Source of the DNA: Fistulifera solaris
Lineage: Eukaryota > Bacillariophyta > Bacillariophyceae > Naviculales > Stauroneidaceae
NCBI GenBank assembly: GCA_030295235.1
Contig: AP026180.1
Location: 236,001-300,000 of the forward strand
Direction: 5' to 3'
DNA: 64,000 nt
Of the stretch, positions 72 through 37,898 are shown one piece after another (within the stretch, counting starts at the first letter, position 1; the number at the start of each line of letters is the position of its first letter). A program made the position numbers and the translations under genes. The notes below the pieces were generated by a model. It did no database searches. It had not been told where the DNA came from and saw only the letters and a program-made list of their open reading frames with translations.

Positions 72-2460
72 TTAGTACTTGTTCCAGAAGGAAGTCGAAT
101 CGTTACGAGCTTTAGTACAGGCTTGCAAGACAACAACTTCATCCATCTTGGGGTGGTGATCCTGCGTGACACACAAACCCGGTTTGGTCACAGGCGAGAT
201 CTCAAAACGATAATGATCAAAGCTACCACCGAGGGCAATAAAGCGCTGTTCCATTACTGAGGCATCGCACACAGCGAGTACAATGCCGTCCGACTCTACA
301 GTTTGCAGACACAACTCCCAGTTGTAGTTTTGGATTTGCGCGGACCCATCGTCGAAACTGACAAGCGTCCACATTTCGGGTGAGATATCGCAGTTGTAAA
401 CGGCTACATTGTTACCTAGAGTGCAACCCGAACGACATCCCATGCACCATTTGCGTTCGTAAGATTCGTATTGCCAGAAATAGCCTGCAAATGATTCAAC
501 GATCGAGCAAGTCAGCTTAAAGGAGAGTGTGCCATTCTTTGTTCCTGATCGGAAATAACGTACCTTCTTCCCAGTATAACTTCAGCGCGAACGGCTCGCC
601 GTCGATAGCGCTGACACTCGTCGCGATAGCTTGGCTGGGATCTGGTTGCGGAACGGAGGCCGCAGTGAATTCAATATTAGACTCATTCACGCTTTCACCA
701 GCTTCTTCTCCACCCCATCCCTCATTAGCATTCGGGTCAGGAATACAAAAGTCCATGTTGGTCTCCCTTAACTCGTCGGACAAGATGCAAAACGGCAAAG
801 GGTCTCCTCGCTCTCGGTGGAAACAAATTAATCCGTGGCCACATTGACTATCACGGTCGCAGTCTGCCTGACAAAGGCCTAGATGAGCTCCATGGTAATT
901 GGAAACCAATTCAGCATCCCTCGGCTCGTGAGACGCTCCATCTCCACTGCGTGCATGTGTCGGGTGCGATGTTGGTGCCGGCCAATCAACACTACGGGGA
1001 CGTGTTGGGTGGGGTGTAGGACGAGGCCAGTCAATACTTCGCGGTCTCGTGGGATGCGGCGTCGGTCTTGACCAATCAATACTACGGGGTCTCGTCGGAT
1101 GATTCGTGGGACGAAAAACGATGGTCGGTAGAGCTACAGGAGACGACGGAGCGGGTGCGGACGGCAAGGGCGCTTGTACTGGCGTAGGCAAAAACACCGG
1201 CATAGTGACCGGGGCAGACGGCATGGTGACGGGTGCCGAAGGTGTAGGTACAGACACCGGCATAGTGATAGGAGTTGAAGGCATCTGGATCGGTGAAGGC
1301 ACCGGCATTGTTACAGGGGCAGAAGGAGTAGGGACAGGCGCGACGGGGGATGAAGGGATTTGTACTGGATTTGCGACAGGCACTGGCATTTGCACTGGAG
1401 TAGGAACTGGAACAGCAATCGGCGCTGGTACAGGGGGTCGCACTGGCGGTGTAACTGGAGCCGTCGGAATGATCAAAGTGACCGGCGATCGTGTAGGCTG
1501 AAACGTTCTTGTCGGACTACTTGTCGGCGCAAACGTAAAGGAAGGATCCGTGCAGAAATCGAAACTAGAAACCAGCAATTCAGCAGAAAGAATACATCCA
1601 GGAACTTCGTCTCCCTCACCGCGTTGATAGCAAATAAGACCTTCAGCGCAATTAGCATCAGAATCACAATCACCCTGGCAAAGTTCAAGGTTGTTATTGA
1701 CTCCGTTACCAATGAATTCGGCTGGTGTTAAGGTTGGAGCTTGAATGCGTCTTGTGGGAGAAAGTGTTGGCGCCGCAACCGGAGGAGCCACGGGCTGCAG
1801 TCCACTCGGATCGTAACAGAAATCAAAATCCGACGCGGCGAGATCGGGAGACAGTCGGCAGCCCGGAACTCCATCCCCCGCACTTCTTTGAAGGCAAACC
1901 AAGCCACTCGCGCAATTTGCATCAGAGTCGCAGTCGCCATGGCAACGCGGTAGATCCGTATTGATACCATTCCCTACGTAAACAGCATCGATGTCACTCG
2001 AGATACCAGGTGTTGGTGCAGGGACACTGACCGGAGAGCTCACTGGAGTAGGAACACTGACAGGAGCGGGTACACTGACTGGAGCAGGTACGCTCACAGG
2101 GGCAGGGACGCTGACAGGAGCAATCACGGGAGGAGAAGGAACGGGCGGTCTCGGCACAATTTCTTCCACAGCGTCATGATCGCCATCCATGACGCAAAAG
2201 TTGACGGAAGAAAACAACAACTCCAGCGACAAGGAACATCCTCTCACAATATCACCAGGCCTTCGCGAGGAGCAGGTCAATCCAGCAACGCAATCGCTGT
2301 CGTCGTTACACTCGCCTTGACAAGCGCCGAGAGGATAAGGAAGATTTTCTCCGAGAAACGTCGCAGGTAACTCTTCGAGTTGTCGATGGCCTTTGCGCAA
2401 TTGCGCAGACGCATACTCATTCGAAGTGAGAAGGAAGATCGAAAGAATAGATCTTCTCAT
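72..2460 (-). CDS. Secreted Cys-rich repeat / beta-trefoil lectin protein (paralogue A, largest)
   Basis: Two exons, 2460-564 and 484-72, joined over a 79-bp GT-AG intron (485-563), give about 769 residues with no frame break. The N-terminus is a hydrophobic signal peptide (start MRRSILSIFLL) followed by an Arg-Gln-Leu (RxL) site near residue 27. Four six-cysteine repeats follow the pattern C-x3-C-x5-C-x5-C-x11-C-x13-C. They are separated by very Pro-rich linkers: a VSVPAP hexapeptide array after repeat 1 and an HPTRPRSIDW array before repeat 4. The last ~140 residues are a ricin-B-like beta-trefoil with three cysteine-containing subdomains, ending in FWNKY. Family knowledge suggests a secreted carbohydrate-binding or wall/mucilage protein; the ligand is unknown. 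It is the outermost and most expanded member of the cluster. Confidence 0.85.
959..1115 (-). repeat. In-frame minisatellite coding for HPTRPRSIDW-type linker repeats
   Basis: Three to four near-identical units of about 54 bp inside paralogue A encode repeated HPTRPRSIDW-like segments rich in Pro, Arg and Trp between Cys repeats 3 and 4. The last unit is diverged (HPTHARSGDG). Confidence 0.75.
1137..1490 (-). repeat. Pro/Val/Ala-rich low-complexity linker
   Basis: Degenerate short repeats encode PVxxPVxxP and PSAPVTMP-like segments between Cys repeat 3 and the HPTRPRSIDW array of paralogue A. The Gly-rich open frame on the opposite strand is only its antisense shadow. Confidence 0.7.
2023..2130 (-). 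repeat. 18-bp tandem array coding VSVPAP linker
   Basis: Five or six copies of an 18-bp unit encode the hexapeptide VSVPAP between Cys repeats 1 and 2 of paralogue A. The period is a multiple of three, so copy-number change keeps the reading frame. Confidence 0.8.
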
Positions 2461-5400
2461 GACTGATTCGGCGTATCGCTCTTTTAATCAATCGTTTTGA
2501 ATGTTGCGAAAGACCGATTGATGCGAAAAAAATGATGTTTGAATGATTTGAAAGAACAACCACATGGCAGTTTTTTTTTTCGAAATGTGAGACGCTAATA
2601 CAACGGCCACAGAATCCTTTCCTAAGTATACAGATTTAATTAGAGTATTGTGTACCGGAAGAACAATTTGAAGTTTTTCGCATATTCTTTTGCGCACATG
2701 GAACAAAAGGGAATATACTGTCTGTACTATACTGGCTTTGTTCGTCACACGTCACATACGTAGAACGCGTTTTACTCATACATGGTCAAAGAAGCACCTG
2801 GTAATGCCAAAGGGAAACGGATTTCAACGACATGGAAACTAACCTTACAACAAACGAAAAATGATTACAACAATGAACGATGAACCATGACAACGATGAA
2901 TGATCAAATGAAAAGTGATTATTGACGATTATGATACCTAGGAAGTGTGCCTCCTGGGTAATGTATGATGCGGATGACAAGCACGTGACAAGGCATCGAT
3001 GAAGAAGGGAAGCATGAAAGATGAAAAATGAAAATGGCTCGAAAGAAATTAAATTTTAAGTTACGCAAACCCGGTTTAAGAGAAATCTGGCCACAAATAG
3101 CCACCTGGGCAAGCGTTCTCCACAAGGTGACCCATGCTCAGTCATCAATCTTCACGTTTGCTGGAGCCAATCTATTAGATACGAGCGTTAAACCAAAGTC
3201 AAAAGAGTAAAGAATTCCGAGCAAGGAGAATCAGAGCCTGATGATATTGCGCTGCTAATATCCGACTCCGTCAAAATAAGTTTGCGTTCGACGCTGTCTA
3301 AGAAAGATGCACTATTGATAGATAAAGAATTAGTCTTCCCGGATAACGACTGAGTGTTCCTGAAGCATAGAAATCAACAAGTAACCGGTGTAGGTAAAGA
3401 GAAAGAAACTATCTAACGTAAGGGTAGGCAACGAGCAAAGACTCGAATGAATTTAAATTAGTGCTACGTAGTCTTTGGAAAACGTTTTCGAAGCTTTTAG
3501 TTGATCGAACAAGGGAGATTGTGCACCAAAGCAACGCTGTGCATGGAGATCCGAACTATCTTGACAAACAAATTTAAGGAACAGCAACTCCTTCCAAGTC
3601 ATAGCTACCGTACCCGGCGACCAGAAACCGCTCAAGGAATTTATTGAAATGGCTGTTTGGCGGAATGTGAAAACAAGGGCGCACTCGAGCACATGCTATT
3701 GATTGCTCTTGAACGACGACACACGCTTCAAGCAATCTTTTCAGGAGAACGACGTTTCGTAGCAGCACCCATGTTATCAGTCATACGGATCACAGTCTTG
3801 TACATTTTCGAAGGAATGGAATACAGTCACGAAACGTTCAGGACGCGGCGGAAAGAAAAATCTCGGCAATGAACACAGTGCAAAATGCGAATGCGCCTTT
3901 CGGGCACACTTTCTTTTCACAGAAGTAAAGCATCACACGCAAGCTCAATCACTCGCTCCGCAAGGCACCTGGAGGTAAATTCAGAAAAAATTTCCAGCAA
4001 ATAGAAGGCGCCTCGACAAGTTTTGACAGCATCGTGCATTATCGTGACAACGATAAAAATCGATGCTTCCCGCAACAGCAAATTATACGGTTGAATGGAA
4101 GGCGCAGCTTGAATCACCAAAAGCAAGCAAAGATGCCATGCGACGGTGACACCGTCGGACAGCTCAAGAACAGCGAGTCCTTAACTAAACCGTCGGCTAA
4201 TTCGCGACGGCACACCCCTTCAATACTACGGTTCGGTATCAGTGCCGACCGTAGCACGATCCAGATTGGGGGATCACATCATCGAACGATGCATATCTAG
4301 CCACTCGATCCGCTTTGACATTAAATGACTTGTCTGAAGCTAGTCTATGGATCTTGGTGACCCGCTTTTCCTTTACAAACCTCTCAAACGCGCGGAAAAT
4401 TCTCTCTCGCGGTGAAAGCATGGAGCTTCGGGCTCATGTCGCGAGGCACGTCTTTTGAAATTTACATTCCACCCTTGTATATCAGGGCATTGCTCGTCAG
4501 ACACATTTCCTTCCCTTCTAGTCAACATCCGTCATGACTAAATACATTCGACGTCAACCCGACAGAAGCAATCCAGCTTGCCTCTTACTCGGAAAAGTCA
4601 GCCGTTTCATCAACATCGAAAGACCCGAGAGGAAATTATGGCATTTTATAGCCTCTATCAAGCGGGATCTACAGAGTCTTCGAAAATAGTCAAGTACAGC
4701 CCAGCGAGGGAATCCATAGGCAAGCCCGGATAACTATCGATCGTTGATGCTCCCGCAAAACAAATATTGTGAAAACTCATGTAGCCAAGCATTCAACTTT
4801 TTGCTGCGTAAAATCTTTTTCGACTCAAAAATTATCGCACTCTATTAAAAAAACTCCTTTGAAAGCCTCGTGGGCGGTATCGTAATCTCTCAGCAAAGCA
4901 ATCATTACAAAACATCCCACTCTCTCACAGCGGGAGCGGAGTTAGCAACATCTGCATGCACCTGGCGAAGGCCTTTAGTGAAGTGAACGGACTTATAGCA
5001 GCGGCGACAATCTTTCTTCCATCAAAAAATCGCCCTAGTTTTGTGTAAGGCAAGTCTTCTGCGCAACAAAGTCGGTAAAGGTTGATTACGCCGCGCGACT
5101 GCTCGCAAGAGGGAAATCGAACAACCTGGACAGCAGTCGATCAAAGCATAAAGCTAAGTTCATATAGTTGTCCAATGTACTTCTTAGCTCAGATATCTGA
5201 AAAAGGGCACGTGATAGGCGTCGGTCTACAGATATATGAATAAGGAGTCAAGCGCTGCTCGGAAGCACGAGGGTGCCTTGCACAGACCGCTTCATCCACA
5301 ATCGGACTTGCATCAACTTGGCTAATCCCATGAGGTTCATGCCCGCGCAGCAGCTTAGGAGAAATGGGAAGAGAATTGAACTGACCCCCCTCTCTAAAGC

Positions 5401-6930
5401 GGACAGACACCATTATTCCTTCTCAGACTCGCAGTATTCCCTCCTAACATCGAGTAAGCCCTCTCTTATCATACCAGTAAATTACAAATGATCTTTGCGA
5501 AGCAGCCAGATAGTATTTTGCATCGGGTCAAGTTAATAACCTATATCTCGCAAACACATCACTTCGAAACGGCAACTTATCGCATTCTTTGGCGCTGCAA
5601 TGAAGGTGAAAGAATGCGACCACCCATCTATCGGATAGAACACATCGAGCTTCTTAGCCGTCAACCCTCTTTCTTTAAAGTATCATCTAGAAAGTGTCAA
5701 CCATATTGCTTTCTTGCGACCGAATTCGTTCGTTATGATGCATCGCTTGCCTCTAGAACTCTATTCTTAGAGAAATCCTTTTGCGACAGCAAGAAAATGG
5801 CGGACAGGGTCATCGTTCAATACATCTTGCCACAGATGCTCTCAAAAATAACTTGTGTTCCTGTATCGAATCTTGTAATCAGATTTGGCAAAATGCATTG
5901 AAAGAAACTTGAGCCATGACAGACATTTGGCGGAAACTGGAGCCGTTACAGTCCAATTGATGAAGATGTCCCAACCACGTTCATCTAATGCGGTGGGATC
6001 ACATAGACCCTCGTCGCCCAGTTTTCTCTGCTTGGTAAGCTAAAGGCCCGATTGACTTCCTTGCGAGTAGGATCTCGGTCAAAGAAGCTTCCGGCAATCA
6101 ATTAAATTCAGCAACGATCCATTAAAAAGACCAGCTCTATTGCACCTCTTATGCAACACCATCAGCTGAGATTATCATCTTGACAGTCTTCCATTGCCCA
6201 TAATTTAATGCTCGCAGCCAACACATTTACTCGATCCCTCGCGAAAAATGACAATAGACAGCAAGCCAAGTAGACAATAGAACAGCCTTGTGTTCTCGTC
6301 GTCCCGTCCACGATGAGATAACTTGTTGTGTAGAAGTCTCCAGCAAAATGAAATACCGGAGATCACGAGCTGGTCAGCTTTATCACTATTGAAAGCAACG
6401 CACATCGTCGTCGGTGCGAATCTCCTTTTTGAACATAGACAAAACCAACGTTTCTTCAAAATATCAATTTGTCTCCTCTCACCTGTGACCGCAATCTCCT
6501 CAAATGGAAACTGATGACTCTGGTGCAAAAGGAAAAATGCGTGCTCAACTCTACGCTTGGAAATTGATTGATGGGTACAAATAATAAGCGTACGGGTTCT
6601 CCGATTTCCATCATCCAAATCGTTTTTTAGAGGATGAGCCTTGCTGTAGGAAAGAAAAACTATCCGAACATTCGAAAACTCTGTTCACTTCTTAAACCCC
6701 GTCGTATGCCAGCGTGATGCTTTGCTCGCACATTTTGAAAAGGATGGCATAAAGAAAAGAAGAAAATAAAGAAAATAAATACTTTATGAGTCATAAAACC
6801 GCAATGTTTCGATAACAATGGGCTATGCCTTCGCGGCTCTAGCGCCGCTAATAACTGACTCCTACATACGGCAAAACCTTCTTTCGATTATTGTCGCTAT
6901 AATAAGCTATAAAACGCCTGTATCTGCAGC
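2461..6930. other. Gene-poor interval
   Basis: About 4.5 kb with only short, low-complexity or compositionally random open frames on both strands. I see no domain, splice-supported exon chain, RNA gene or clear repeat. It separates paralogue A from the retrotransposon region. Confidence 0.5.
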
Positions 6931-6931
6931 C

Positions 6932-6979
6932 AAGACTGGATTGTAAAGAAGTCACGAATTCATGAACAGAACAATGGCT
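6932..6979 (+). repeat. Fragment of the 245-bp repeat R
   Basis: A 48-bp stretch beginning GCCAAGACTGGATTG matches the last part of the R unit found at 13.3-13.8 kb and 51.35-51.66 kb, with several substitutions. It lies just beyond the 3' end of the retrotransposon, so R-derived sequence occurs on both flanks of that element. Confidence 0.6.
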
Positions 6980-7362
6980 AGAATTTACTAGTCTATGCTT
7001 ACGTCCTATGTCCTATCCCTACAAGAGAACCGAATCCCTAATCGAGTTAGAGAAACACAACTGAGCCGATGGACAATGGATGAAATCCACCGAACACCGA
7101 ACCGCTGCCAGGTCAAACAAAATAAAATAAAATAAAAATTGAGAGTTTAGCGTACTTTTATCCTATCCCTATGACAGAACCGTAGCGCAAAAACGTCAGC
7201 GAGACTAGGTCGCGCGTGTTGCCAGGTCATCACAAAAGCGATGAACAGGGGGGCTGCCATCTGATTCAGATTAGAGTTGTGGCCTGGTCCGTCGGCCGAA
7301 TGATTAAATTGGATTCGCGTTGAGCGCCGATGCTGGTGAATTTGTTCTTTCTTGGGATTTAG

Positions 7363-8301
7363 TCAAGTGTTCTTGGTTGGCAGCTGTCGTATGACTGTTG
7401 TGTTGTTATGATCACTGGTGCTGGGCTGTGGTGTTTTGTGTAACTGCTTGGAAGACGCTGTTGGAGGCGTTCGTTTTTCTCTTTCCATATCGTGTGGTGT
7501 CTTAATATGTTTGCCCGGTGATTTACTAACCAGGAAGTGAGGTGGTTGTTGTCCATTAGAAGTCTCTGCCGCGAAGGGCCGAGAAAACGGGTAATTGATA
7601 TCGCATTGTTCCTGGAGGTCGTATAGTGCAATGACTGTTTGTTGCAAGTGATATCGTTCCGCTTGTTCTGCAGCTGTTTTCTTGGATGTGTCGACTAGAC
7701 TTGACCGTATTTTCCATGCTTCGTAGGTCTCTATTATGATATACCTGCTGAGTTTCTTTGCCCATGTTCTACCGTTGTTTGAGTGAGTGAGTTCGTTCAA
7801 GGTTTTGAGATGGTTCGCCACTTGTTCATCCCACTCCTGCGGGATCAGGCCTTTCATCCATAGGTCTACGTTGTTGTCGTCCAGAGTCCCGTTGAACCAG
7901 TCCTTGATACTTTTTTGGATCTCTCTACTCAGCTCGACTGGCGTGTTGTTTTCTCTCAGTATATCAAGTAATCCGTCTATGAAGCGATGTCTCCAGTCGC
8001 TAAGTGCTGGACACCGCAGAACATGGTCGAAACATTCGTTTTTTGCCGGGCAGTGGGGGCAGCGGGGTGATGAGATTTCTTTGCATTTGTGTCGCCTCTC
8101 ATTTGTTGGGATCCAATTGCTGAGTCGTTTCGCGGCAAAAGCTTTAAGCTTAAAGGGCAATTTCTGTCGAGCTAGTCGGTATGCAGTCCAATGCAGTGCG
8201 TTGTACTCGTCTTTTGTAATGTTCAATTTTTCTCGAATATATTTCAGTCCTTTTTCTCTTCCTGCTTGAGCTTTGAGTTCGCTGGAGTACTGGCTAGTCA
8301 A
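7363..8301 (-). pseudogene. Retrotransposon C-terminal zinc-knuckle region
   Basis: An uninterrupted 312-codon open segment. Near residues 73-95 it has a Cys/His cluster of the form C-P-H-C, then His and Cys (HVLRCP), similar to the C-terminal CCHC-like knuckle of I, R1 and Jockey-type elements. The remainder is polar and basic with a Thr/Ser/Pro-rich tail. It probably binds the template RNA or target DNA. Confidence 0.65.
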
Positions 8302-9052
8302 CAGTTCATTATCAAGTAGTATGTACGCTGAAGTCCCCCGAGTGGTATCGGAACGGAGGTCATGGTTCGTTGCTGGAGCGCCATTGTTGCCAGTTTGTCA
8401 GCCTCGACATTTAGTTGTGAGACCCAGGATAGGTTTTCGAGGGCGCCGTTGTCGTCTTGGTGTCCATGAACATGTTCGTGCGTAATATTTGGTATGTTTC
8501 GGTATTGTTGTATAGTCAGTTGAATCACGTCCATATCTGGATGGAGTTGGTCATGGGAATTCGGTATTTCGATCTGCTTGATGTACCTTTCTTTCTTTAG
8601 AAGCGCTTCATTATCACACGCAGTTTTCCAAAGAGTGCCGTCGCCGTATTTTAGTTGATAAAAATCGGTGTAGTGGCGAAGGAATGTGAATGCCGCTAAT
8701 CTTCCGTAGGCCTCGGGCGCTGATACGATGTCATGGGTCGGCCTTGTGCCGCACCCCATCCACGCCACAAAATTTCAATGTCGTTTGCGATTACCCATCC
8801 AAATCCGCCTTTCGAAGCTATGCACCCTCCATCCGAGACGATATATAGCTGACGATCTTTGTCAAGAACTGCTTCGAATAGGGCCTCGCTTTCTGGAGAC
8901 TCCTTTGTGTAACGTAATAGGTCTTGCTCCCATTTTTCGAGTGATTTTGTATATTCTTTCCATGTTCGTAATAATCGTTTCTCCGGTGGCTTTATTTTGT
9001 GTTGAGGGATCATGTAATCAAATCGTCTTCTTGTCGAGGCTCCTGCGGGCAC
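8298..9052 (-). pseudogene. Retrotransposon RNase H domain
   Basis: Two overlapping frames (9052-8696 and 8768-8298) make one RNase H fold. The four acidic positions are visible: Asp in VSDGG, Glu in an RAEAYGRL-like stretch bridging the frame change, Asp in CDNEAL and Asp in NVEADKLA, with a conserved HGHQDD loop before the last. This distinguishes the element from LINEs lacking RNase H. Confidence 0.75.
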
Positions 9053-9103
9053 AAATACCTCTGGCGCTGTGTCGTCTAAGTTCAGGTCAGGTTCGTTCGC
9101 GAT

Positions 9104-11527
9104 TCAATCCGTTGTTTGAGTGATCAGGAAATGGATAACATGTCCATTGATTGCGGTTTCGTTCGTATAATTGTTGCTCAGTAATGTCGTAAACTGCGGG
9201 CCAGCTTCTGTGGGACGGCACCTCGGTCCATGTCGCCTAGTCGATTCTGGGCGTTTCCCGTCTGTTGTTATATGGCTTATAAATTCTCTCCAAATTGTCC
9301 AGCATCTCTTCCCGGGTTTAGACTGAATTGGCCATAGCGTTTTGCTTTGTGAGATCATTGATTCGGGCTTTAGTTCTTCTTTGTAGTTGAAAGACAATTG
9401 CTGCCCGTCGATATTGGATATATCCGATAGTGTTGCCACTTGTAAGAATAAGCGGACTCTGTTCAATTGTTCCAGTTTCTTTGGGCTGTTCCACAACTTA
9501 GCTGCGACATCCATAATATATTCGTCATTCTCTCTGTATGTTTGTGGTCTGTGTAGTTCGGGAATAACAAATCTTCCATTGACCTTTGTGAGGAAGAGTC
9601 TAAGTTCGTCCAACCATTTGTTATCTGAAAATGCTATGAGATGGCTTGGGTGTTCCAGGATCAAGTGTTTAGAACCCACAGCGTGTTGAATCCAGTCGAG
9701 AGTGATAATTAAAAATTCTCCAATGTGAGTCTTTTGTCGTAGATGGCGCAATAGATAGCAGCAATTGAGTATTCCTTGGTCTGTCCACAACGAAGCTTAG
9801 TCCTACTCCTCCCTCCACTTCGGAGAGATAGACCATGTCTTTCGGAAAAGTTCTTGGATAACCCATCTTTTGCAGTGTGTAGCTTAGCGGTCCAGATTGT
9901 ATCGATTTGAGTTGCTTTTCGCTGAGCCCGCATGGTAAGCGGGTATCGTGTCGCTGGGTAGGAAGACTGACATGTACGCTCGGTAAGCTACCGATGCTTC
10001 CAGTTTGTGGTACAAAGCTCTGGTAACTGTTCGACTTTTTGTTAATAGTGCTGCTTGCTGCGCGCGGAAATCATTTACTGGTTGCTTCTGTATGCCCAAG
10101 GTTCTGTGATGTGATGAATTTAGCTTCCTTTGTATTTGTTCTATAGCGCCATCGGTGCTTTGTGTAATCAAAATCGGAGAATCATCATCGTCTCTGTCGT
10201 CTAAGTTGCACTTTCCTTCGGAGTCGAATATCCATTTTATGTGGTAAAAGAAGCACTTGGACAGTTCCAATTTTCCTCCTGTGGTGACTAGCAGTTTCTC
10301 CCACCACTGTGTTGCCGTTTTGGAGTTCAGTGCGTGTAGATTGGTTGGGGAATCGATGCCTTTAATACTATCATCGAAATTGTTTATCCAAATTGAGCTA
10401 TCGTCCACGAACATCTGCATGTGATGCTTGATAGATTTGGTTTCAGTTGGATTTCGAAAGGTTGTGCCTGGCGAGTGTTGTTTCATCGCTTTGAGAATTA
10501 AAGTGCTTATCGCTGTCCAAATCGCTGGTGAGCTCTGGTTACCTTGGCCCGGGCCGTGTAGTTTATGGGTTGGTGTTGATCCGTGCAGCTGAATTTGATA
10601 CGCCCGAGTGCTGTTGACACATGGTATTGTGCCTGGTCAAGGAAATTGTTGAACAGCTTGCATGCATTGTGTGGTACTCCAAGTTGTTCGCATCTTAACT
10701 TTGCTAGTGCCATAACGATTCTGTCATAGCAGGCTTTTGGCGTCGTTATCCATGACGACTAATTCCGTTTTTGTTAACTGGGCCATCATGAACGATAGGA
10801 ATTTCATAGCGTATACATCGATGGCGCTTCGTCCTTTTCGTGATCCTCCTTGCTCGTCGCCGAATTGATTGTTTATCTCTGCTCTTTTCATCATTTTTCG
10901 ACCAAACGTAATTCCTGTAAACGCGTTGAAGTCTGACTCGAACAAATGGATTACTCGTAATTTTTCAACATCTGGATTGCCCGGTATCTTTTCTAGCATT
11001 ACACTCGTCACGTTCGCCCAACGGTTGAGCACGTACCCCGATTGGATACAGATATTGATGATTGTGGCTAATACTTGGAAAAATATTTCTCCGTGATCTT
11101 CGTCTTCATCTGCGAGACTACAATCGGCTGTGGCGTCGTCCCCTTTCGGTATTTTTGGGTTCTTTGCTTTGTCTATGGCTTTGTACATCCCTAGGTGCCT
11201 ACCGGATGGCGAAGTTGATGTTGGTTCCCTCCAAGTGCGGTATTTTCTTCGTAGTTCGTCCCCTTCAATTTGGCTTAATGTCTCGTCTTGGTCAATTTTT
11301 GTGCTTAACAATTCGTGCAGTACAGCCTTCGTTGCTTCTTCTTGCATTGAACCTTCTGCCTCTAGCTTTGTTAATGCGTGATCTAGAGGTTCGGAGCAAA
11401 TTTGTTCAATTGTTGGATCGGTGAATGGTGTCCCGTCTGCTTGATGGAAATGTCGTAGATTGCGTTGGATGAGTTTTTCTGTGATTTCATCAGCGATCGA
11501 AGATTGTCTTGCTCTCCCCGGTCTCAT
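9104..11527 (-). pseudogene. Retrotransposon reverse transcriptase domain
   Basis: At least four open segments (11527-10724, 10713-10507, 10486-9884, 9866-9104) in different frames make up the RT. Motif A appears as VVMDNDAK, with the frame then broken before YDRIV. A GPGQGNQSSP segment matches the block before the catalytic box, and MFVDDSS is the FVDD form of the YxDD box, so both catalytic aspartate sites remain. Later segments form the thumb and connection. The element would reverse transcribe its own RNA at the nicked target, but this copy is unlikely to be active. Confidence 0.8.
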
Positions 11528-12064
11528 CTCTTATGACCAACGATGTCAACGCGCCGTTCCTTCTGCCTCTCATAGTGGATCTAATGGTTTGATGGGATTT
11601 CCTTATTTCCTCGGACTTGCGGATATTGCGGAGTAATCTCTTTCGTTCCTTGTCTCCCGCGTCTGCTGCCAACTCTTCTTGCTCAATAAGCCACTGCTCG
11701 CGAAGGTCTTCCGCCTTTTGTACGGCGGACAATAGCTCTTTTCTGCATTTTCTTTTCTCGGATTGAGCCGACTGGCGAGTGGGTTTGCCTGTTGGTTGCT
11801 CTAGTGATCCTCCGGCTTGTTCGATTCGCTGGACCCGTGTTTTTTCTGTATCGGCTCATGTCGGAGCCCAGTTCTCAGTTCGCTTACCCAGGAATTCCAG
11901 TATTCTAACGAGTGAACATAGATCATGAGATAAGGTGACCACGCATTCGATCGGACTCTTGCAAATAATTTCTCAGACTCTATCATGGTGTCGGTAATGA
12001 GGCGGTCAATGGATTCCAACTCTTCGATATCTTCCGGAAGAAGTTCGTTATCTTGTAATGTCAT
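11490..12064 (-). pseudogene. Retrotransposon spacer between endonuclease and RT
   Basis: Two open segments rich in Glu, Lys and Arg (12064-11801 and 11732-11490) resemble a helical linker with Leu-rich and basic stretches. There is no recognisable domain. Several frame changes are needed to connect it to the endonuclease and RT. Confidence 0.55.
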
Positions 12065-12140
12065 CTTGGCAAGCAGGATTGCTGTTCGCTGATGATAGTT
12101 TTCTTCGTGCAGCTTTGTAAGTACTGCCTCCTTGTATTCT

Positions 12141-13360
12141 CTACTTAGTTTCTTGTGCCGTGATATGATGGTTCGTGGCTTGACTTGAGTCGTTTACGTG
12201 GAAACGGTCGTGTTGTAGATATTCGCGCAGGTCGATGTCCACAAACATCAGTCTGTGATCAGTAATCGATTCAAACTGTAGATATCCGCAAGCAGAAACG
12301 AATGGCAGAACGTCGTGAGTTGCCAACATATAGTCGATTCTTCTTGTTCCTCTCTTGTGCGTCCCAAATTCTTCGTGGCACCCGTGTCTATAGACGTAGA
12401 TATCGCACATTTCCGTATTCTGGACGAATCTCGTCAGCCATGAGTTCCGAGTCATCATGTCACTGTTTGCGTCAATAAATAGGACAATTCCGTGTCCTTC
12501 CTGCTGTAGATCGATACATAACTTGGTAATACATTTTTCGAACCAGTCTCTTGGTGTCGGTTTCTGTAAAATTCGTGATTTCTCGGTTAGGAGACTTTGG
12601 CGTTGCTTCCATGTAGTCTTTTCTCCAAGATCGTCGCTTCCCTGGCAAACTTGGTATGCGGTGATTATGGATAGATGTCGTTCTCCAGTCCCTTTGAGAG
12701 TTTGAATACTCCATTGTCCTAATGATGATTCGTCTGCGCCATTTCGTGTAATATAGTTTTGCCATTTACCACCGATTAGTTGAAAAGTTCCTCCCGGTTG
12801 ATAGTAATCTCCGAAAGCTCGATCACTGCAGCTGCACGTTGCTGTTACTTTTCGTTCCCATGCTGGTGAAATCATGTCTCTTACTTTGTATTTGGCTCCA
12901 TTGTGGTTGAAATCCAAGTTTGTCTCGATGAGGCTGAGTCCGTCTACTTCTCTTCGGCCACCTGTAGTCCTATACTGACTGCCGCCGCAAAATTGTTGTA
13001 GTGAGATATGCCGTTTATGTTGCCGCCGTAATGTCGGTAATGGTTCTCTTCTTTTATTTGTATTGGGTCTCCTCGTTCGTGATTTTCTATGTTGGTCCCT
13101 GTGAGTTCATCGAGTGTTCTCTGGTGTAATTGTTCTGTCGTTGTTTGTTTACTTCTTGGTCGTTCGCTTTGTCTCTTGTTGTATGGGTGTCTTCTGTTTC
13201 TTGCTTCGTCTAGGTAATTTTCGATTGTTGGTTGCTGTGTGTTCACTTCCGGCTCAGAGGCCGTCGGAGGACCAATTAATGGTCCTCCTGAGTCCCCATG
13301 GGGACAGGTCAAACAAAAAAAGGTTCCGTTTTGCGCTCTCTCACATCTGTCCATTGTCAT
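12141..13360 (-). pseudogene. Retrotransposon N-terminal region and EEP endonuclease domain
   Basis: Open segments 13360-12944 and 12917-12141 join through a frameshift. After a polar N-terminus the endonuclease begins with a GGNINGIS-like beta strand, followed by an E-T-N motif, a FIDANSD motif and a final SITDHRLM (S-x-x-D-H) motif. These match the metal-binding and catalytic blocks of exonuclease-endonuclease-phosphatase domains. In non-LTR elements this domain nicks the genomic target. Confidence 0.8.
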
Positions 13361-13950: not shown

Positions 13951-15457
13951 AATGCAACCCTCTTTTCTTTCTTCCGCATCATACCTGCCTGGTACCTTAT
14001 TGCATCGCATCTCGCATCATTATACAGTGCTTTGCGAACGTTTATTTTCTACTGGTATCAATCAAATGTGGACAAAAGGGATTGTGAATCTCTTGAGTGG
14101 TCTTTTGGGTACTATCAACCCGCCGGCGGTCGTGATTCCCCGAAGTCGAGATGTATTGAGTCGATGTCAAGGCGATTGCTTGCAATTTGACTGCGATGAA
14201 GGATTGCGATGTCAAGTACGTCAGGCGGGAGACCCTGTTCCGGGTTGCGTACTTACAGATGAGTTGCTGCAATCGGAGTATGCATTCTGTGTTGCTGTGA
14301 GGGGAGACACTGAAGAAGGCGACGATGATGCTACAGAAGAAACGCTCGAGCCTGTCGAACAAGGAACGGATAATCCAAGTGATCTTCCGAGCGATATGCC
14401 TTCTGATTTCCCTACTTCAACTCCAACACCTGCTCCCACTCGAGTAGCTACACAAGCTCCTACGACCGCAGCTACGTCGACGTCTACTTCCGGCTCTTTC
14501 ACACCTTCTCCTACCCTTCCTCGAACCGGTTTCACTGCGGCCCCCTCCGTCCCTCAAGTCGTTACGCCGACGGCATTACTGGGTGTTTGTCAGGGTGGAT
14601 GCTTTTCCGATACTGACTGTGAGCCAGGTTTGATTTGTTATCAGCGAACGACCAACAGAGGCGTCCCTTATTGTGTCTTGTTTCAAGAACAAACCGATCG
14701 ACGTGACAATTACTGCATTCCGGATCCCAACATACCTTCCGATGTGCAATACGGAGGTGTTTTAGCTACCACCGGTGTTGCAGGGCAACTAACGGAGTGT
14801 CAGGCGGACTGCAGTACCGATTTGGATTGCGTGGGCGACTTGGTGTGTTACCAAAGAGCCGCTTCGGATGGGGCCCCGGGTTGTAGTCTGGACCCGAACA
14901 TGCTGGCAAGTGATGCGGATATTTGTCTCAAAAATCCGACTTCCGGTCGACAAGACAACATTCCGACCGACACGAGCGTGTTTGCTCTCAAATTGTATTG
15001 GGAAGAGGGATTTGAATGGCAATTTGAAAGCTTTGAACGACTGTTTTGTTTAAACTGCTTTGGAAATTGCGAGGCCGGTGGTCAATTGTCGGTAACAAAC
15101 TGCTTTGATTTGCCACGGATGTGGACTTTGACGTCACAATCGACTGATGGATCGGCTTTGATCAAATTAAAGGACTATGACTTGTGCATGGAATGGAATG
15201 AAACATTCGTATCTCCGCCAGCTGCAACCTATTTGCAGCCCTGCAACGAGACCAATAATGCACAACGATTCTGGCCGGCCGAAGGAGGATCCTTTGCGGA
15301 TGACCGATTCGAAATTTCGCCGCGAACTCGTAGAGGGATGTGTCTGACACAAGAACACCACCCAATGACGAACGAAGTGGTTTACTTTGACTACTGTATT
15401 CGGCCGCAGTTATCTGATACTTCACTGTGGAATAAATACTTTCCGACTCAAGCATAA
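13951..15457 (+). CDS. Cys-rich repeat / beta-trefoil lectin protein (paralogue B, intronless)
   Basis: A single uninterrupted frame, the only plus-strand member of the cluster. In-frame ATGs exist at 13793, 13951 and 14067. I prefer 13951 because 13793 lies inside repeat R; the true start is uncertain and no convincing signal peptide or RxL site is seen. Three six-cysteine repeats sit near residues 73-116, 211-255 and 276-320 of the 13951 form, with an acidic then Thr/Pro/Ser-rich linker after the first. The C-terminal beta-trefoil ends in LWNKYFPTQA, a short extension not seen in paralogues. The intron found in all six other genes just before the Trp-Gln of the trefoil is absent here. Confidence 0.75.
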
Positions 15458-15775: not shown

Positions 15776-16772
15776 CTAAACTTTGTTCCAGTACGAAGTA
15801 GTACTTCTACGAGCGGTGGTACACGGTTCTATGTTTACAAACTCGTCGGTTTTAGGATGGTGGCGCTGGGTCATGCACCAGCCTTGGCGTTGCTTTGGTT
15901 GAATCTCGAAACGGCTATCACTAAAACTTCCACCGACTGCAGTAAAACGCTGCAATTGATTTTGGCTGTCACACCGCTCAAGCTCCAGATCTCTTCCTGA
16001 ATTTTTCTGAATACAGACACCTCTGTTTGCAACCTTTATCTGCACCTCATTAGGCCCATGCGGCACGAATTCCCACTGGGTCGGCGAATCAGCGCAGTCA
16101 TAGATAACAATTTCGTCTTTTATATGACAATTCCCTTGGCAGTTCAAGCACCATTTGCGTTCGATTGTCTCTTCCTGCCAGAAATACCCTTGATAGCAAC
16201 GGCATGAGCGAGGAATGACTGGAATAGACGATACCACCTGCATACGACTTACCTGGTTCCCAATACAATTTCAAGGCAAATGTGTCCTTATTGGTAGGTG
16301 GAGCTGCATCATCTTTTTTAACACAGAAATCGTAATCGGAACTAAAGAGCCCGCTGTCCAAGTCACAGCCAGGCGCACTCTGACCTCGACTACGTTGATG
16401 GCATCGTAAGCCTTCAGCACAGTCATCATCACTGTCGCAGTCACCTTGGCAAAGGCCTAGATTACTCACGTCGTTATTGCCGACGTAAGTAGCCTTTGTC
16501 AGACGTGCCGATGCTGCAACACAAAAATCAAACGGAGAGTTGCGTTGCTGCGTGGACAGTGTGCATCCTGGTGCCGGTTCTCCTATCTTTCTTTCCCAAC
16601 AAATGAGACCAGGTTGACAGTCCGCATCGGTGTTGCAGTCGCTTTTACAAAGACCGAGACTTCCTTTCTTTACTTGTAACCGACGTCGCAGTTGATGAAT
16701 CGGACCCTCATCGTCCCTGGCGAACGCGAAAGGCACGAATAGTGTTAACAGAGTGAAACTTTGATATTTCAT
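15776..16772 (-). CDS. Secreted Cys-rich / beta-trefoil lectin protein (paralogue C)
   Basis: Exons 16772-16253 and 16188-15776 with a 64-bp GT-AG intron encode about 310 residues with an intact frame. A signal peptide (MKYQSFTLLTLFVPFAFA) is followed by RRRL (RxL motif), then two six-cysteine repeats separated by a short linker containing TYVGNNDVSNLG. The trefoil begins YFWQEE and ends SYWNKV. This compact form, with almost no Pro-rich linker, gives the clearest domain layout for the family. It is convergent with paralogue B, their stops being about 320 bp apart. Confidence 0.88.
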
Positions 16773-17643: not shown

Positions 17644-18522
17644 TTAGTATTTGTTCCAGTACGAGGTGTCGCCTCTGCGCGCTGTAGTACAGGGCTCAAT
17701 GTTCACCGCCTCGTTGGTACGGGGTGGTGCCTTTGCGTCATGCACCATCCGCGTCGCTGTTTCGGAGATACTTCGAAACGCCTGTCATTGAAACTGCCAC
17801 CGCTGGCGATGAAGCGCTGCTTTTGATTCGAACTATCGCACTTCTCAAGCTCCAAGTCGTTGCCGGCCTTTTCTTGAATGCAGACATCTCGATTGGCGAC
17901 CTTGATCTGTACTTCATTCGGACCGCGCGAGACGAATTGCCATTGCGTCGGCGAGTCGGCACAATCATAAATGGCGATTTCGCTGCCCGGGTTACAGCCA
18001 CCCTTACAATTTAGGCACCATTTGCGCTCCTTTTTCTCTTCTTGCCAATAATAGTCTGAATAAAAGCGAATGATTGAGCATATCCAGATGATATAATGTC
18101 GCGATGCACGGTTCTTCATTCATTCTTACCTGATTGCCAATACAATTTCAATGCAAAGAATTTCCACCCCCACCACCGCCTCCCGTTGGCGGCGAGCGAA
18201 CGGGTGATGCCGCAGGGGCAGGATTCGGCGAACCTCCTCGTGCTGCCACGCAGAAATCCGCCCTGGATTTGCGTTGGTTGCTCGTTAGAGAGCACCCAGG
18301 AGCACTGTCTCCTGCGTTTCTCTGGTGACAAACGAGATCTCCGCGACAAGAAGCATCATTGGAGCAGTCTCCTTCACACAGACCAAGGTTACTCGTTTTG
18401 CTCACTATCTTGGCGGCGGTCTGCAACTTTCGTAGAAACTGCTGTGAGTTTGTTTCCTCGTCATTGGCTAACGCAAAGGCCAAGAGAGACGAAAGAAGGA
18501 GGTTTTTCAGAATGAGTTTCAT
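17644..18522 (-). CDS. Secreted Cys-rich / beta-trefoil lectin protein (paralogue D)
   Basis: Exons 18522-18130 and 18055-17644 with a 74-bp intron. The start at 18522 gives a clean signal peptide (MKLILKNLLLSSLLAFALA), followed by FLRKLQ (RxL), one six-cysteine repeat, a Pro/Ala then poly-Gly linker and the trefoil ending TSYWNKY. Two one-base breaks exist: near 18155, in TTCTTTG before the FALKLYW segment, and near 17735, in CACCCCG before the last third of the trefoil. Exon 2 is 412 bp against 413 bp in paralogues A and C, supporting a missing base rather than a true lesion. Confidence 0.85.
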
Positions 18523-19699
18523 GGCGGCGTTTTGTACAAGGAAGAAGGAAGGTAACAAGATATGACAGACAGGCGACGACCAAACCACAGAAGGATTAAA
18601 AATGAAATCTTTGTTCCGAGTTCCGAGGCTCTCAAATTATTTTGGATATCGCCTTACGGTCTTTCGTCTTTTGGTCTTCTGCATTGGCCGACTTACTTGG
18701 CTGTAATAATTGTTGTCGCAGTCACAATCTTCGACGAACCATAGTGTCAACGTGCTTCCTGTTTTCCGTTTGGCTTGCGCGATGAAGAACACAAGGATAA
18801 ATAGTAACGTCTTTAACGGTCCATCTATTCGTGGTTAGGCTTGCTTTAGAGTCGAAATTTCAAAAACGTATAAGTCTTTCAATTTACCGTGTATCCACAT
18901 ACGGTAAGCGGAAAAGAAAATTCGTCCGCACGCCCGCCACACCCAAAAGAACAATTGCCAAATAACCCAGCTATCTATTTATAATAGCGCGCTGTGTCCG
19001 TGTGTGTGTGTGTGTGTGTGTGTCACGTCGGTCCCGGCTGTCTGGGTCCCGGGTTGAAGGTTCATTACTGGTAAGGTTACTGTACGTTCTCTCTTTGTAC
19101 GGAGTAATTAATTGGCTGTTTTCTGTTCTTCGTTCTCTGTTGTTTCTGTTCTTTGTTCTGCCGAGTACAGTATATCTCAAAGAAGATCTTCGAAATGTCT
19201 TTCTTCTTTCGATGGACCTGAAAGTGTATTCAGTCACGGACAACTTTATGTTGGTTTTTCCCGAAATGGGGATCCTAATCAAGTATTTGTCCATGCCAAT
19301 CAAGATGAATTCATGCATCTCCAAAACCAATTACCACAAGACCATTTTTTTACTCGAAATGTGGTCTACAAGGAGATTTTTCAATAAGAATTGCAATCTA
19401 AACTAAAAATACACTTACTGTTACACTACATTCACAAAACTACTTTATCGCCTACACCTCTTTCTTGCCCCCCGCAGGGGCTAGCCCGCGTAAGCGGCTA
19501 GTAAAGGATAATTACAAGCAACCAGCTAAGGGGTCTCCAAGCTGCCGAGTCGACTATCTTCGATGAACTACAAGGTCACGCGTTTGCATAAGTTCATTTC
19601 CAAGTAAGTTTCACAGTATTAAATCATTTTCAACTTAATAACACAAACATCACTGCTTATCGGTGATTTAACACGACTGTTTACGTCAACAAAAAACGC
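18523..19699. other. Intergenic region with a TG microsatellite
   Basis: No gene is supported. A (TG)n run lies at 19000-19023. A GC-rich imperfect hairpin (CTAGCCCGC, loop, GCGGCTAG) lies near 19481-19500, downstream of paralogue E. Confidence 0.5.
19000..19023. repeat. (TG)n microsatellite
   Basis: About eleven to twelve uninterrupted TG dinucleotides. Confidence 0.95.
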
Positions 19700-20968
19700 C
19701 TAATACTTGTTCCAGTAAGAGGTATTGCTGCCGTCTCGGCGTGCAGACACGCATGGTTCGAGATTTACCGACTCGTTCGCTCGAGGATGATGACGTTGGG
19801 TCATACACCAGCCCTGGCGTAGCTTCGGTGATACTTCAAACTTTAGGTCATTGAAGCTTCCTCCAAACGCGACGAAACGTTGGTTCTGATTATTACTGTC
19901 GCATTCGGCTAATTCCAAGTCGTTACCAGGGAACTCTTCAATGCAAATATTCAGATTGGCGACCTTAATCTGCACTTCATTCGGTCCGTGAGATACGAAT
20001 TCCCATCGGTCCGGCGAGCCTTCGCACTCCGTGATGGAAATCTCTTTTCCAGGGCGGCAACTTCCAGTGCATTCCAAACACCACCTTCGCTCAAACGGCT
20101 CATCTTGCCAGAAGTAATCTGTAGAGAAGCAAAACGATAAATGAGATATCACAACCAAAAAGACACAACTTTCGTAGATTCATTGTTCTTACGTGGTTCC
20201 CAGTGCATCTTTAGCAAAAACGAACTTCCCGAGGGAGTAGGCCGTACCGGGGAAGAAACTGGCGCGCGTACTGGAGGCGGAACCGGAGGAGTGGGACTAC
20301 CACCCGATGCAACGCAAAAATCATAGTCGGAATCAAGCATGCTTTGAGTAAAGCTGCATCCAGGTGCACCTTGGCCTCGGTTGCGCTGATGACAACGCAA
20401 TCCTGGAGCGCAATCGGCGTCACTATTTCATGAAAAAAATGAGAAAAAAGCCACAAGCGCCTGCAATCAAAAGAACAAGAGAGACGTACCTGTCGCAATC
20501 GCCTTGGCAAGCGCCTAAATTACTAACGTTATTATTTCCTACGTAAGTAGCTCTCGTGCCTCCCGTAGGAACTTGGACCGGAGCACGAACTGGAGCAGCT
20601 ACCGGTGTAGGAGCACGAACTGGAGTAGCTACCGGTGTTGGGGCACGCAAGGGTGCCCGAACCGGTGTAGCGACGGGGCCTCCAGGCCGAGCAATGCAGA
20701 AATCGGCTCGGCTATTGCGTAAGCTGCTCGACAAAGTGCATCCGGGGACGGAATCACCAGCATTTCTCTGAAAGCAAACTAGTCCGGTTTGACAGTCAGC
20801 ATTAGTCGAGCAGTCGCCTTCGCAGCGACCAAAGTTTCTGGTTTTATTGACGATACGAGCAGCGACTTGAAGATGCCGACGAACTTTTTGCACAGGCGTT
20901 TCTTTCTCGCTGGCGAGCGCCAAAGCGAGCAGAGGCATCGCCACAAAAGCCTTGAGAAGAAGTCTCAT
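19700..20968 (-). CDS. Secreted Cys-rich / beta-trefoil lectin protein (paralogue E, three exons)
   Basis: Exons 20968-20490, 20422-20193 and 20118-19700 (introns of 67 and 74 bp) give about 375 residues with an intact frame. A signal peptide (MRLLLKAFVAMPLLALALA) is followed by VRRHLQ (RxL) and Cys repeat 1. An RAPTPVA-type Pro linker made of 12-36-bp repeats comes next, then Cys repeat 2, a second VRAPVSSPVR linker and the trefoil ending NTSYWNKY. The first intron lies inside Cys repeat 2, within its GDCDSDADC segment, and is not present in the other two-repeat paralogues. The second intron is at the family-wide position. Confidence 0.87.
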
Positions 20969-21799
20969 TGTTGCAGTGTCTTTGAAAGGTATGATGTCAA
21001 GATTTTCGAAAAAACAAGGAATGATCTTGATTTATTCACTTCTCGTTGTTGTTTATTACAAGTGCCCTCGTATTTTTTGCGTGCAGTTTTTCTCGATGTC
21101 GCGAGGTCGATACGTAGTAAATAATAATTGATGAGTCCGGACAGTTTTGTTCTTCGTTCCTACCACCAGGTACTTTAAACGGTATACTAATCATCTCAAT
21201 CCGTCAATTGCCGTACCGGTATCCGTTTTCCCTCCATCCACTTTTTTAGGATACGCGTGCGCCGGCCGAAGATCCTGGGCCTAAACTTGGAAATTGTTTA
21301 AGTACTTAACACAAAGCAGCGATGAAAGAAATCGTGGATGAGTTTCCGTTCCACTCATCAGCTCCAAGAAAACAATCACTAAAGTTCACTGTTGGGAAAA
21401 TTTCGATCTTATACAAATGTAAATCGACGTGACGTTGGCTTGTTCTTTAAACATAGTCTGCAGTACAAAAAAAGCTCATAAGGCCCATTATAAGCACGTG
21501 GTAACGGTTTTCACCACGTCATTTGGCCAGTCTATGGCGACATCGAGACTTTGTACAACAAGAAGGATAGTACATACACACGGAATTGGCCGTCGCTGGG
21601 TACCGGGTACCGTACCGTCGTACCGTAGCTATAGCATAGCTTCGTCACCCCAACCTTTCTAACCTTATACCTAATGGACTGAATAACAAAATCAACAACG
21701 TGCCGGCATTTCTGTGTAACGCAGTGTTGAAGACTGATACAAATATTGCTTTTCCAAAACTATACGGAGTACTTCTCAATCAATTTACTTTCCCTACAA
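20969..21799. other. Intergenic region
   Basis: No gene supported. A stretch near 21598-21630 contains reiterated TACCG(T/G) steps. Confidence 0.4.
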
Positions 21800-22960
21800 T
21801 CAGTATTTGTTCCAGTAGGACGTGTTGCTTCCGTCGCGGCGTGCCGTCACGCATGGCTCAACGTTTACAGACTCATTATTCTTAGGGTGATGACGTTGGG
21901 TCATGCACCATCCTGGCGTTGCTTGGGTGATATCTCAAAGCGCCGATCATTGAAGCTACCACCAAACGCAACGAACCGCTGCTTTTGATTGCTGCTGTCA
22001 CAATCTGCGAGCTCCAAGTCGTTGCCAGGAAATTCTTCCACGCAAATATTTCGGTTTGCGACCTTGATTTGCACTTCATTCGGTCCGTGCGAAACGAATT
22101 CCCATTGAGTCGGCGAGTCATCACAATCGAAAATAGCGATTTCGCTGCCCGGGTTACATCGTCCGCGACAGCTCATGCACCATTTCCGCTCAAATGGTTC
22201 ATTTTGCCAATCGTATCCTTCATAAAGAGAAAGCGACGTGAGATGGTCGATTGGATGTAAAAGTATGAGCACTGATTTCATTATTCTTACCTGGCTCCCA
22301 GTACAGCTTTAGAGCAAAAGTATCTCCCGAAGGCGGAGAACGCACAGGCGCAGGAACAGGTGCTGCCGGACTTTGTCCGCCGTTTCCTCCGCCATTCGGC
22401 GAATCGTTTTGGACACAAAAGTCGTTATCTGAATTCATCAAGCTGCGACTCAAGATGCACCCGGGTACTTCCTGTCCTCGACTCCGTTGAAAGCACTTCA
22501 ATCCTCGTGCGCAATCGCTGTCTCTGTCACAATCAGATTCACAGAGACCAAGATTACTTACATTGTCGTTGCCGACATAAGATCCCCTTGTTTCCCCGGG
22601 GGATGTGGGCGGAACTTGAAACGGCGCAGCAACAGGAGTTGGAGGATTAACATCAGGCGAGTTACCCGCCACACAGAAGTCGACTCGAGACGCGAGAAGT
22701 CGATCTGACAAACTGCATCCTGGTGCGTCATCACCCGCGTCGCGCTTAAAGCAAGTGTAGCCTGAACGGCAGTCGGCATTGTTAACACAATGGCCTTCAC
22801 AAAGTCCGAGATTACCATTGTGGTTTCGACCAAAGTTACGTGCAGTTACTTGCAACTTGCGTCTCAAAAATTGCATAGAGCGCTCATCTGTTGGGTTTTC
22901 TGCCATGCTTGTAACCATTAGAAGCAATGGGAGCTTGAGTAAAAGCTGAAGGACTTTCAT
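21800..22960 (-). CDS. Secreted Cys-rich / beta-trefoil lectin protein (paralogue F)
   Basis: Exons 22960-22291 and 22217-21800 with a 73-bp intron. I chose 22960 because it places a signal peptide (MKVLQLLLKLPLLLMVTSMA) at the N-terminus; the longer upstream frame crosses a CTTG repeat. FLRRKLQ carries the RxL motif. Two six-cysteine repeats are joined by a short Pro-rich linker and followed by a Gly/Asn and Ala/Pro linker and the trefoil. A one-base break near 21913 (CCAGGATGG) interrupts the segment before GWCMTQRHHP. Exon 2 is 418 bp where the most similar paralogue E has 419, again one base short. Confidence 0.85.
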
Positions 22961-22983
22961 GGCTTGCTTGCTTGCTTGCTTGA
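22961..22983. repeat. (GCTT)n microsatellite upstream of paralogue F
   Basis: About five GCTT units directly upstream of the chosen start codon (AAGC units on the coding strand), hence in the 5' leader or core promoter. Confidence 0.85.
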
Positions 22984-23791
22984 CTGAGGAGACTTTTAAG
23001 CAATAAAAATACTTGTGCGAATCTTTTGGAAGACAACGATGAGCGATGAACTTCATTTTTGTTTGTTTGTGGGTGTGCGCGGTGTTCCGACTTCCGACTT
23101 ATTCCAATATTTCAATTGCCACGATCCCTCAGTTTCCGTTGATGAGAAAGATGAGAGACTGTTAGTACTAAGAGTCTAAAAACGGTTAAAGGAAATTCCC
23201 TATTCCTTTTTTCTTCTACAAAAGGCTTCATACTTTGTAGCTGATGGTTGTTCTTCGATAACTCTTCGAATACTTTGTGCATCATCTCCGAAAAACTGGC
23301 AGACTTGCAAACAACGAACTGTAGAGACTTTTGTAGTCGAAAAATCGTAAACGGAAAGAGGCCAATGACCAATGACCCAATGACCTCCCTACTCCCTATC
23401 AACATCTATATTAATGACCCACATATTTTGACGGACGAAGGACAAATCGACGGCACTCTTTTGACTTATGACGACGACACGACGACCAATGAACGATGCG
23501 AGACCATCCTGCGACAAACGGCGTCCTTGCTTTCCACATAAGATCTACATTCACATAAACAAAGATGCCGTCTTTATGGCAATTGTGAAAAATGACCGCT
23601 GGCTCGCACGCAAGCGACATGTAAAGCAAAGTGAATAGATTCTTTCGACAAGATAATCACGCAACAACGCCATCGACAAGTTTTTCTAAATGATATGATA
23701 TCCAAAGGATCGCCACAAAGGTCGTGCAGCTTCATTGACGAAAAGATCACAGCTCTTTTTCGCCTCACAAACCTTCCTACTTTTTCAAAAC
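22984..23791. other. Intergenic region between paralogues G and F
   Basis: Nothing beyond short random open frames; presumably holds the promoter of F and the 3' end of G. Confidence 0.4.
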
Positions 23792-24725
23792 TCAGTATTT
23801 GTTCCAATAGGATGTACGACTTCCTTCTCTTCGAGCCGAGACACAAGGCTCAAGATTAACATATTCACCGCTTTTAGGATGATGGCGCTGCGTGAAGCAC
23901 CAACCTCGACGAAGCTTCGGTGAAATCTCAAAGCGTCGGCCGTCAAAGCTCCCTCGCGCTGCAACAAACCGTTGCTTTTGGTTGCTGCTGTCACACTGAG
24001 CCAGCTCCAAGTCATCGTAAAGGAATTCCTGAATGCACAGGTTTCGCTGGGCAACCTTGATTTGTACTTCATTGGGACCGTGAAATACAAACTCCCACTG
24101 AGTCGGCCCGTTGTTGCAATAGATTGCAATCTCACTTCCTTTGCGGCAAAAACGGCGGCACGTCATGCTCATGCACCATTTTCGCTCGAATGGTTCATTC
24201 TGCCAGTTGTAACCTTCAAAGTATTATTGGTTGAGAACGAGCCGAACAAATATTCAAATCATTTTCAATAATCTTCTTACCTGGCTCCCAGTAAAGCTTC
24301 AAAGCGAACGTACGTCCATTGAAGCCAAAATGTTCGGCATCGCCAATACTGCTGGGAACATCCGATGACTCAGTATAATTGGACGGTGCCATTGTCGGTG
24401 TTGGAGCTAGGGAAGGAAGATCGCTACCATCATCCGTTAGTCTGGCAACACAATAGTCTGTTCGGGAATTACGTTGCTTCTCCGATAAAGAGCATCCAGG
24501 CACACCATCTCCCGCGTCTCGTTGAAAGCAAACCAGATTGCCGCGACAATCTGCATCGGTTTCACAGTGACCCTCGCACAATTCCAGATTGCCAGAATGG
24601 TTGCTTCCATAATTCTTGGCAGCCACTTGCAAATTGCGTCGAAGGAGATTAGTCGAGGCTTCTTCACTTGCTAGAGAAGAAACAAGCAAGTGAACCATCA
24701 GTGATGCTTGAATGATGAATTTCAT
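23792..24725 (-). CDS. Secreted Cys-rich / beta-trefoil lectin protein (paralogue G)
   Basis: Exons 24725-24281 and 24213-23792 with a 67-bp intron give about 288 residues, frame intact. A signal peptide (MKFIIQASLMVHLLVSSLA) is followed by LLRRNLQ (RxL), one six-cysteine repeat, a Ser/Asp/Pro linker with potential N-glycosylation (NYTESS), and the trefoil. The first trefoil loop has extra residues (CMSMTCRRFCRKG) compared with paralogues, and a Cys-Asp pair is replaced by CNN. It is the cluster member nearest the MFS gene. Confidence 0.87.
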
Positions 24726-37873: not shown

Positions 37874-37898
37874 AACAATGCGATAACAACTTAATAAT

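Follow-up and report, generated by a model that had tools for sequence, protein, structure and literature searches.

Frustulins, a family whose name dates from the 1990s according to the reference list of PMC4557024, are regarded as general diatom cell wall proteins (PMC4712521). As laid out in PMC4712521, frustulins are recognized by a pre-sequence with a signal peptide and SPII, and by acidic Cys-rich (ACR), Pro-rich, poly-Gly and Trp-rich domains, at least three of these five being required; an ACR domain measures about 50 aa and has conserved Cys. The same report describes, for F. solaris frustulin1 (fso:g20405) and frustulins 2-11, a signal peptide, ACR repeats, linkers that are Pro-rich, of another kind or missing, and a Trp-rich domain with a ricin-B signature, all of which recur at the locus presented below. 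The signature goes back to 2016, when InterProScan was reported to assign the Trp-rich domains of the F. solaris proteins to the ricin-type trefoil (IPR000772), and the function of the domain, in the words of that report, "still remains obscure" (PMC4712521). Frustulin1 is expressed, and its fusion with GFP was located around the cell, accessible to antibodies at the outermost cell surface (PMC4712521). Regarding other species, epsilon-frustulin of Navicula pelliculosa is described with ACR domains carrying CQGDCD and VPGCSG hexapeptides, linkers and a Trp-rich domain, and the alpha-frustulins of Cylindrotheca fusiformis with ACR repeats and Pro-rich linkers; according to the same report it is epsilon-frustulin, and not the alpha-frustulins, with which the F. 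solaris proteins group (PMC4712521). Thirteen frustulins were reported in Seminavis robusta (PMC8027222). Furthermore, RXL motifs have been described in frustulins and other diatom silica proteins, and frustulins enter the silica after its formation (PMC4557024).

The window, by which we mean the whole 64 kb stretch of DNA analysed here, contains seven genes that are, with very high probability, tandemly arranged frustulin genes of a raphid diatom, one that probably belongs to Fistulifera or stands close to it. Their products would be secreted, cut after an RXL motif and deposited in the organic wall coat. The array spans positions 72-24725, and the outer limits proposed for it in the first-pass annotation are exact, given that the stop codon of gene A ends at 72 and the ATG of gene G lies at 24725. 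Six of the genes are on the minus strand and only gene B is on the plus strand. Splice sites are models, derived from GT-AG borders and from agreement between the gene copies. The genes are the following:

72..2460, minus strand: gene A, frustulin-like, 769 aa; CDS 2460-564 and 484-72 with a single 79-base intron; four ACR repeats, long Pro-rich linkers and a C-terminal ricin-B-like domain, RQL following the signal peptide
14066..15457, plus strand: gene B, frustulin-like, 463 aa, no intron; ATG at 14066 uncertain, the frame being open upstream to 13790; three ACR repeats
15776..16772, minus strand: gene C, frustulin, 310 aa; CDS 16772-16253 and 16188-15776 with a 64-base intron; two ACR repeats, short linkers, RRL pro-sequence
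17644..18522, minus strand: gene D, frustulin with two frame breaks, lower end set by WNKY-stop beyond the second break; one ACR repeat, Pro-rich and poly-Gly linker, intron 18129-18056, ricin-B-like domain
19700..20968, minus strand: gene E, frustulin, 375 aa, three exons (20968-20490, 20422-20193, 20118-19700); two ACR repeats, Pro-rich linkers
21800..22960, minus strand: gene F, whose counterpart in F. solaris is most likely frustulin1, lower end set by WNKY-stop beyond a single frame break near 21910; two ACR repeats, Pro-rich and Gly-rich linkers, intron 22290-22218
23792..24725, minus strand: gene G, frustulin, 288 aa; CDS 24725-24281 and 24213-23792 with a 67-base intron; one ACR repeat

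All seven genes carry the six-cysteine (ACR) repeat, of which there are 15 in total. When the 64 kb are translated in six frames, the pattern C-x3-C-x5-C-x5-C-x11-C-x13-C has 13 unbroken matches, all of them within the seven genes, and it had no match across 30 triplet-shuffled versions of the window. The spacing 3-5-5-11-13 is exact in 14 of the 15 repeats, counting the second repeat of gene E, in which a modelled intron splits the pattern and which becomes exact once spliced; the first repeat of gene B is the only inexact one, with a spacing of 3-4-5-11-13. It had been proposed that all seven genes share this repeat in one to four copies, which stands, except for the exactness of the spacing in that single gene B repeat. 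Likewise, the Trp-Asn-Lys ending proposed for all of the genes was recovered throughout as S-x-W-N-K, located in genes D and F beyond the frame break and in a different frame. In addition, genes A, C, D, E, F and G share a modelled intron of 64-79 bases at a common position, just before a [YF]xWQ segment of the C-terminal domain. Gene E has a 74-base intron at that position and an additional modelled one of 67 bases (20489-20423, minus strand), which interrupts the acidic loop in the second of its ACR repeats and has no equivalent in the other repeats.

Judged from the sequence, the domain order and features of these genes fit the published description of frustulins. A hydrophobic N-terminus (best 10-residue mean 2.0-2.5) together with an RXL motif within 60 residues is present in six of the seven genes, these two properties being all on which a signal peptide was called. 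The N-terminus of gene B is the least hydrophobic of the seven, if only by a small margin (1.88), and RXL is absent from its first 60 residues, counted from an uncertain start codon. ACR repeats are found in every gene. Linkers, classified by eye, are Pro-rich in A, B, D, E and F and poly-Gly or Gly-rich in D and F, while they are short or weak in C and G; among the published F. solaris proteins, frustulins 3, 4 and 9 have neither Pro-rich nor poly-Gly linkers (PMC4712521). Trp makes up 3.0-3.7% of the C-terminal domain, as calculated for the second-exon part of the six genes other than B, and contents as low as 4% are reported for the Trp-rich domain of frustulins (PMC4712521). Compared by description with epsilon-frustulin, several genes of the array differ in having Pro-rich linkers, VPGC is often replaced by APGC, and the SG following the Cys of VPGCSG is missing from all 15 repeats. 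Points that weigh against the frustulin reading are the absence of RXL from gene B and, as detailed below, the uneven acidity of the ACR repeats and the few C-terminal domains above the ricin-B cut-off.

The correspondence extends to an individual member of the published set. The forward primer with which frustulin1 was cloned (PMC4712521) matches the ATG of gene F in 28 of 30 bases at 22960, the next best site in the window reaching 19/30, and the reverse primer matches the C-terminus of the same gene in 26 of 29 bases at 21831, while 10 shuffles of each primer gave best matches of 18-20. The reverse primer, which encodes SNTSYWNKY, identical to the ends of genes E and F, also matches D (25/29) and E (24/29). 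Given such matches at both ends, gene F most likely corresponds to frustulin1 of F. solaris. The two primers are also what links the window to Fistulifera or a near relative, its diatom origin as such following from the protein family. Because the primers show two and three mismatches, respectively, gene F would represent a homoeologue, an allelic copy or the copy of a sister species and not the identical sequence. F. solaris is allodiploid, which would make gene F a likely homoeologue of frustulin1.

These proteins were initially interpreted as modular, secreted and trefoil-tailed, perhaps belonging to the wall, and this interpretation, with a diatom wall as the probable site, is supported. 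The first-pass annotation did not recognize them as frustulins, whose ricin-B tail was published in 2016: since IPR000772 had been reported for the Trp-rich domains of the F. solaris proteins (PMC4712521), the combination seen in the first-pass annotation was already in print, as was the counterpart of one member, and the protein type is a known one. A description of this particular seven-gene array was not found in the literature searched, a search that did not extend to supplements and most subscription papers. The value of the result is thus mainly one of annotation, the genes now being named as frustulins, apart from what the differences between the copies offer: seven adjacent paralogues that vary in repeat number, linker and acidity constitute a natural series for probing each module.

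In regard to the C-terminal domain, the profile PF00652 (Ricin_B_lectin) matches all seven copies with E-values from 6.5e-8 to 1.3e-3, and only those of genes C and E lie above the curated Pfam cut-off of 29 bits; the domain of gene C is also above the cut-off of PF03498. The likeness to ricin-type beta-trefoil lectins thus consists of a profile match in 7/7 genes and of partly conserved Q-x-W/F motifs, whereas differences are seen in the five domains below the cut-off, in the eight Cys that A, C, E and G have in the part encoded by the second exon, and in the residues expected at the sugar site. The classical ricin-type site requires an Asp two residues past the sub-domain Cys. In the 20 sub-domains that could be read (seven alpha, seven beta and six gamma) this position is occupied by N, E, S, G, Q or T, with Asp in none of them and Glu in four, which weakens the glycan binding suggested in the first-pass annotation. 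An AlphaFold model of the gene B trefoil domain was poor (mean pLDDT 47.1, from an alignment of seven rows), and no threefold repeat was detected in the gene C domain, where the internal alignments were equalled by 130, 151 and 677 of 1000 shuffles; for these two reasons, the assignment of a trefoil fold rests on the profile matches. A profile search with the trefoil against PDB sequences gave a best E-value of 0.036. Scans of viral contigs yielded 10 pattern matches with protein B and 31 with the trefoil alignment, and a scan of prokaryote genomes with the trefoil alignment yielded 32, none of the three providing a confirmed relative. Taken as it stands, the domain could be an anchor or assembly module and not a classical galactose lectin, and what the frustulin trefoil binds is the question that we consider worth further work.

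The ACR repeats differ among themselves in composition. A full D-x-D-x-D-x-[DNQ] loop is present in A2, A3, A4, C2 and F2, which are five of the 14 full-length rows, and also in the spliced E2, i.e., in 6/15 repeats. The first repeat is without the full acidic set in all seven genes, and six of the eight later repeats have it, the exceptions being B2 and B3. The isoelectric points of the 14 repeats measured (E2 left out) range from 4.05 to 8.35, with values of 4.05-4.82 in A2-A4, B2, B3, C2 and F2. Those of the first repeats are 4.2-4.3 in A1 and B1, 5.1-5.4 in F1 and G1, and near neutral or basic (6.2-8.4) in C1, D1 and E1. Binding of Ca2+ has been reported for ACR domains in general (PMC4557024), in agreement with the earlier proposal that the Asp-rich loop could bind this ion, a proposal that now has to be narrowed: since the loop is full in only six repeats and acidity varies, it is likely that only some of the ACR repeats are Ca2+ sites. 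An AlphaFold model of the repeat (15 rows) had a mean pLDDT of 90.3 and showed a small unit with little regular structure. A Foldseek search of this model against the PDB returned nothing at E <= 0.001, the best match being a chain of a DCC-Draxin complex (0.12), with small venom peptides and IGFBP chains next, and we therefore claim no fold relation for the ACR. The repeat profile reached a best E-value of 0.34 against PDB sequences, and an NCBIfam search gave a weak TIGR04201 match in three of the 15 rows (best E 0.016).

The probable way in which such proteins work would start with the signal peptide, which would take each frustulin into the secretory pathway, followed by cleavage after the RXL pro-sequence and placement in the organic coat of the silica wall. 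There, the disulfide-bonded ACR repeats could serve as knobs for cross-linking or binding, set apart by the Pro-rich or Gly-rich linkers, with Ca2+ presumably carried by the repeats that hold the full acidic loop, and the C-terminal trefoil would anchor or assemble the protein toward a wall polymer, probably not via a classical galactose site. The sequence itself shows the anatomy of the genes, their match to the family and the agreement of gene F with a published surface frustulin at the two primer sites. Affinity for Ca2+, the RXL processing motif and location in the wall would apply here by analogy with what others have reported for the frustulin family, while disulfide bonding, anchoring by the trefoil and a division of labour among the repeats are steps that we infer.

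As for the age and state of the array, the protein identity of the second exon is 64-76% among genes C to G, and 39-48% for A and B, both to each other and to the rest. At shared four-fold sites, the copies C-G agree in only 6/26 to 11/25 cases, and dS was saturated in 14 of the 15 gene pairs formed without B, being 2.08 for D-F. With four-fold sites near random at a protein identity of 64-76%, the duplications would be old and the proteins held by selection. This suggests an old array and not a newly expanding one, and the former description of the family as expanding is not supported, silent sites between the copies being near saturation.

A partly decaying state of the array is compatible with the frustulin reading, with D and F as pseudogenes and B as a retrocopy or a relic with altered targeting; we find this possible and yet rather doubtful. 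The frame breaks, two of them in D and a single one in F, would speak for it, as would gene B, which is devoid of the intron that the other six genes have at the same place and adjoins a retroelement-like stretch. However, D is broken near 18165, beside a G-rich stretch, and near 17720, beside a C run, and F at a short GG, positions typical of sequencing indels, and beyond each of the breaks the family sequence continues to the WNKY end and a stop codon. Moreover, the proteins of D and F share 67-76% identity with those of C, E and G while the four-fold sites are near random, which argues that they were under selection until recently, the counterpart of gene F is expressed (PMC4712521), and no poly(A) tract is present in the approximately 100 bases past the stop of gene B. 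The frame breaks in D and F may thus be sequencing indels or recent losses, and gene B, intronless and in opposite orientation, is possibly a retrocopy or the product of intron loss.

A more elaborate version of the frustulin reading, in our opinion improbable, would distinguish two specialised ACR classes that always come in the same order, the leading repeat having an incomplete set of Ca2+ ligands and the distal ones binding the ion, combined with a trefoil that no longer binds sugars in the classical way and is used as an anchor for wall polymer or self-assembly. If this were true, the array would represent graded, Ca2+-switchable cross-linkers differing in valency, from one to four repeats. 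The positional distribution of the acidic loop invites such a view, but B2 and B3 both have an incomplete set, and A1 and B1 are overall as acidic as the distal repeats. The last alternative, a new, expanding family of modular glycan-binding lectins for adhesion or mucilage, could draw on the PF00652 matches in all seven genes, the tandem arrangement, the secretion signals and the ricin B-like lectins listed among tandemly duplicated genes in Seminavis robusta, a benthic diatom (PMC7335047), but it is highly unlikely given an architecture already published as frustulin (PMC4712521), the Asp missing from every sub-domain read and the age of the copies indicated by their four-fold sites.

Several other features were noticed around the frustulin genes. 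Between genes A and B, at 7363-13360 on the minus strand, lies the retroelement-like stretch of about 6 kb, with broken open frames, which by eye resembles a non-LTR retrotransposon; one of the five frames scanned there gave a zf-RVT (PF13966) match with an E-value of 1.3e-4, below the cut-off. Also recognized by eye were a glycosyltransferase-like frame with a DxD-type motif at 27354-28223 (plus strand), a glucanase-like secreted protein in two frames at 37887-39540 (plus strand), and, at 45024-46232 (minus strand), an open frame resembling the ATP-binding region of an ATG7-like E1 enzyme.
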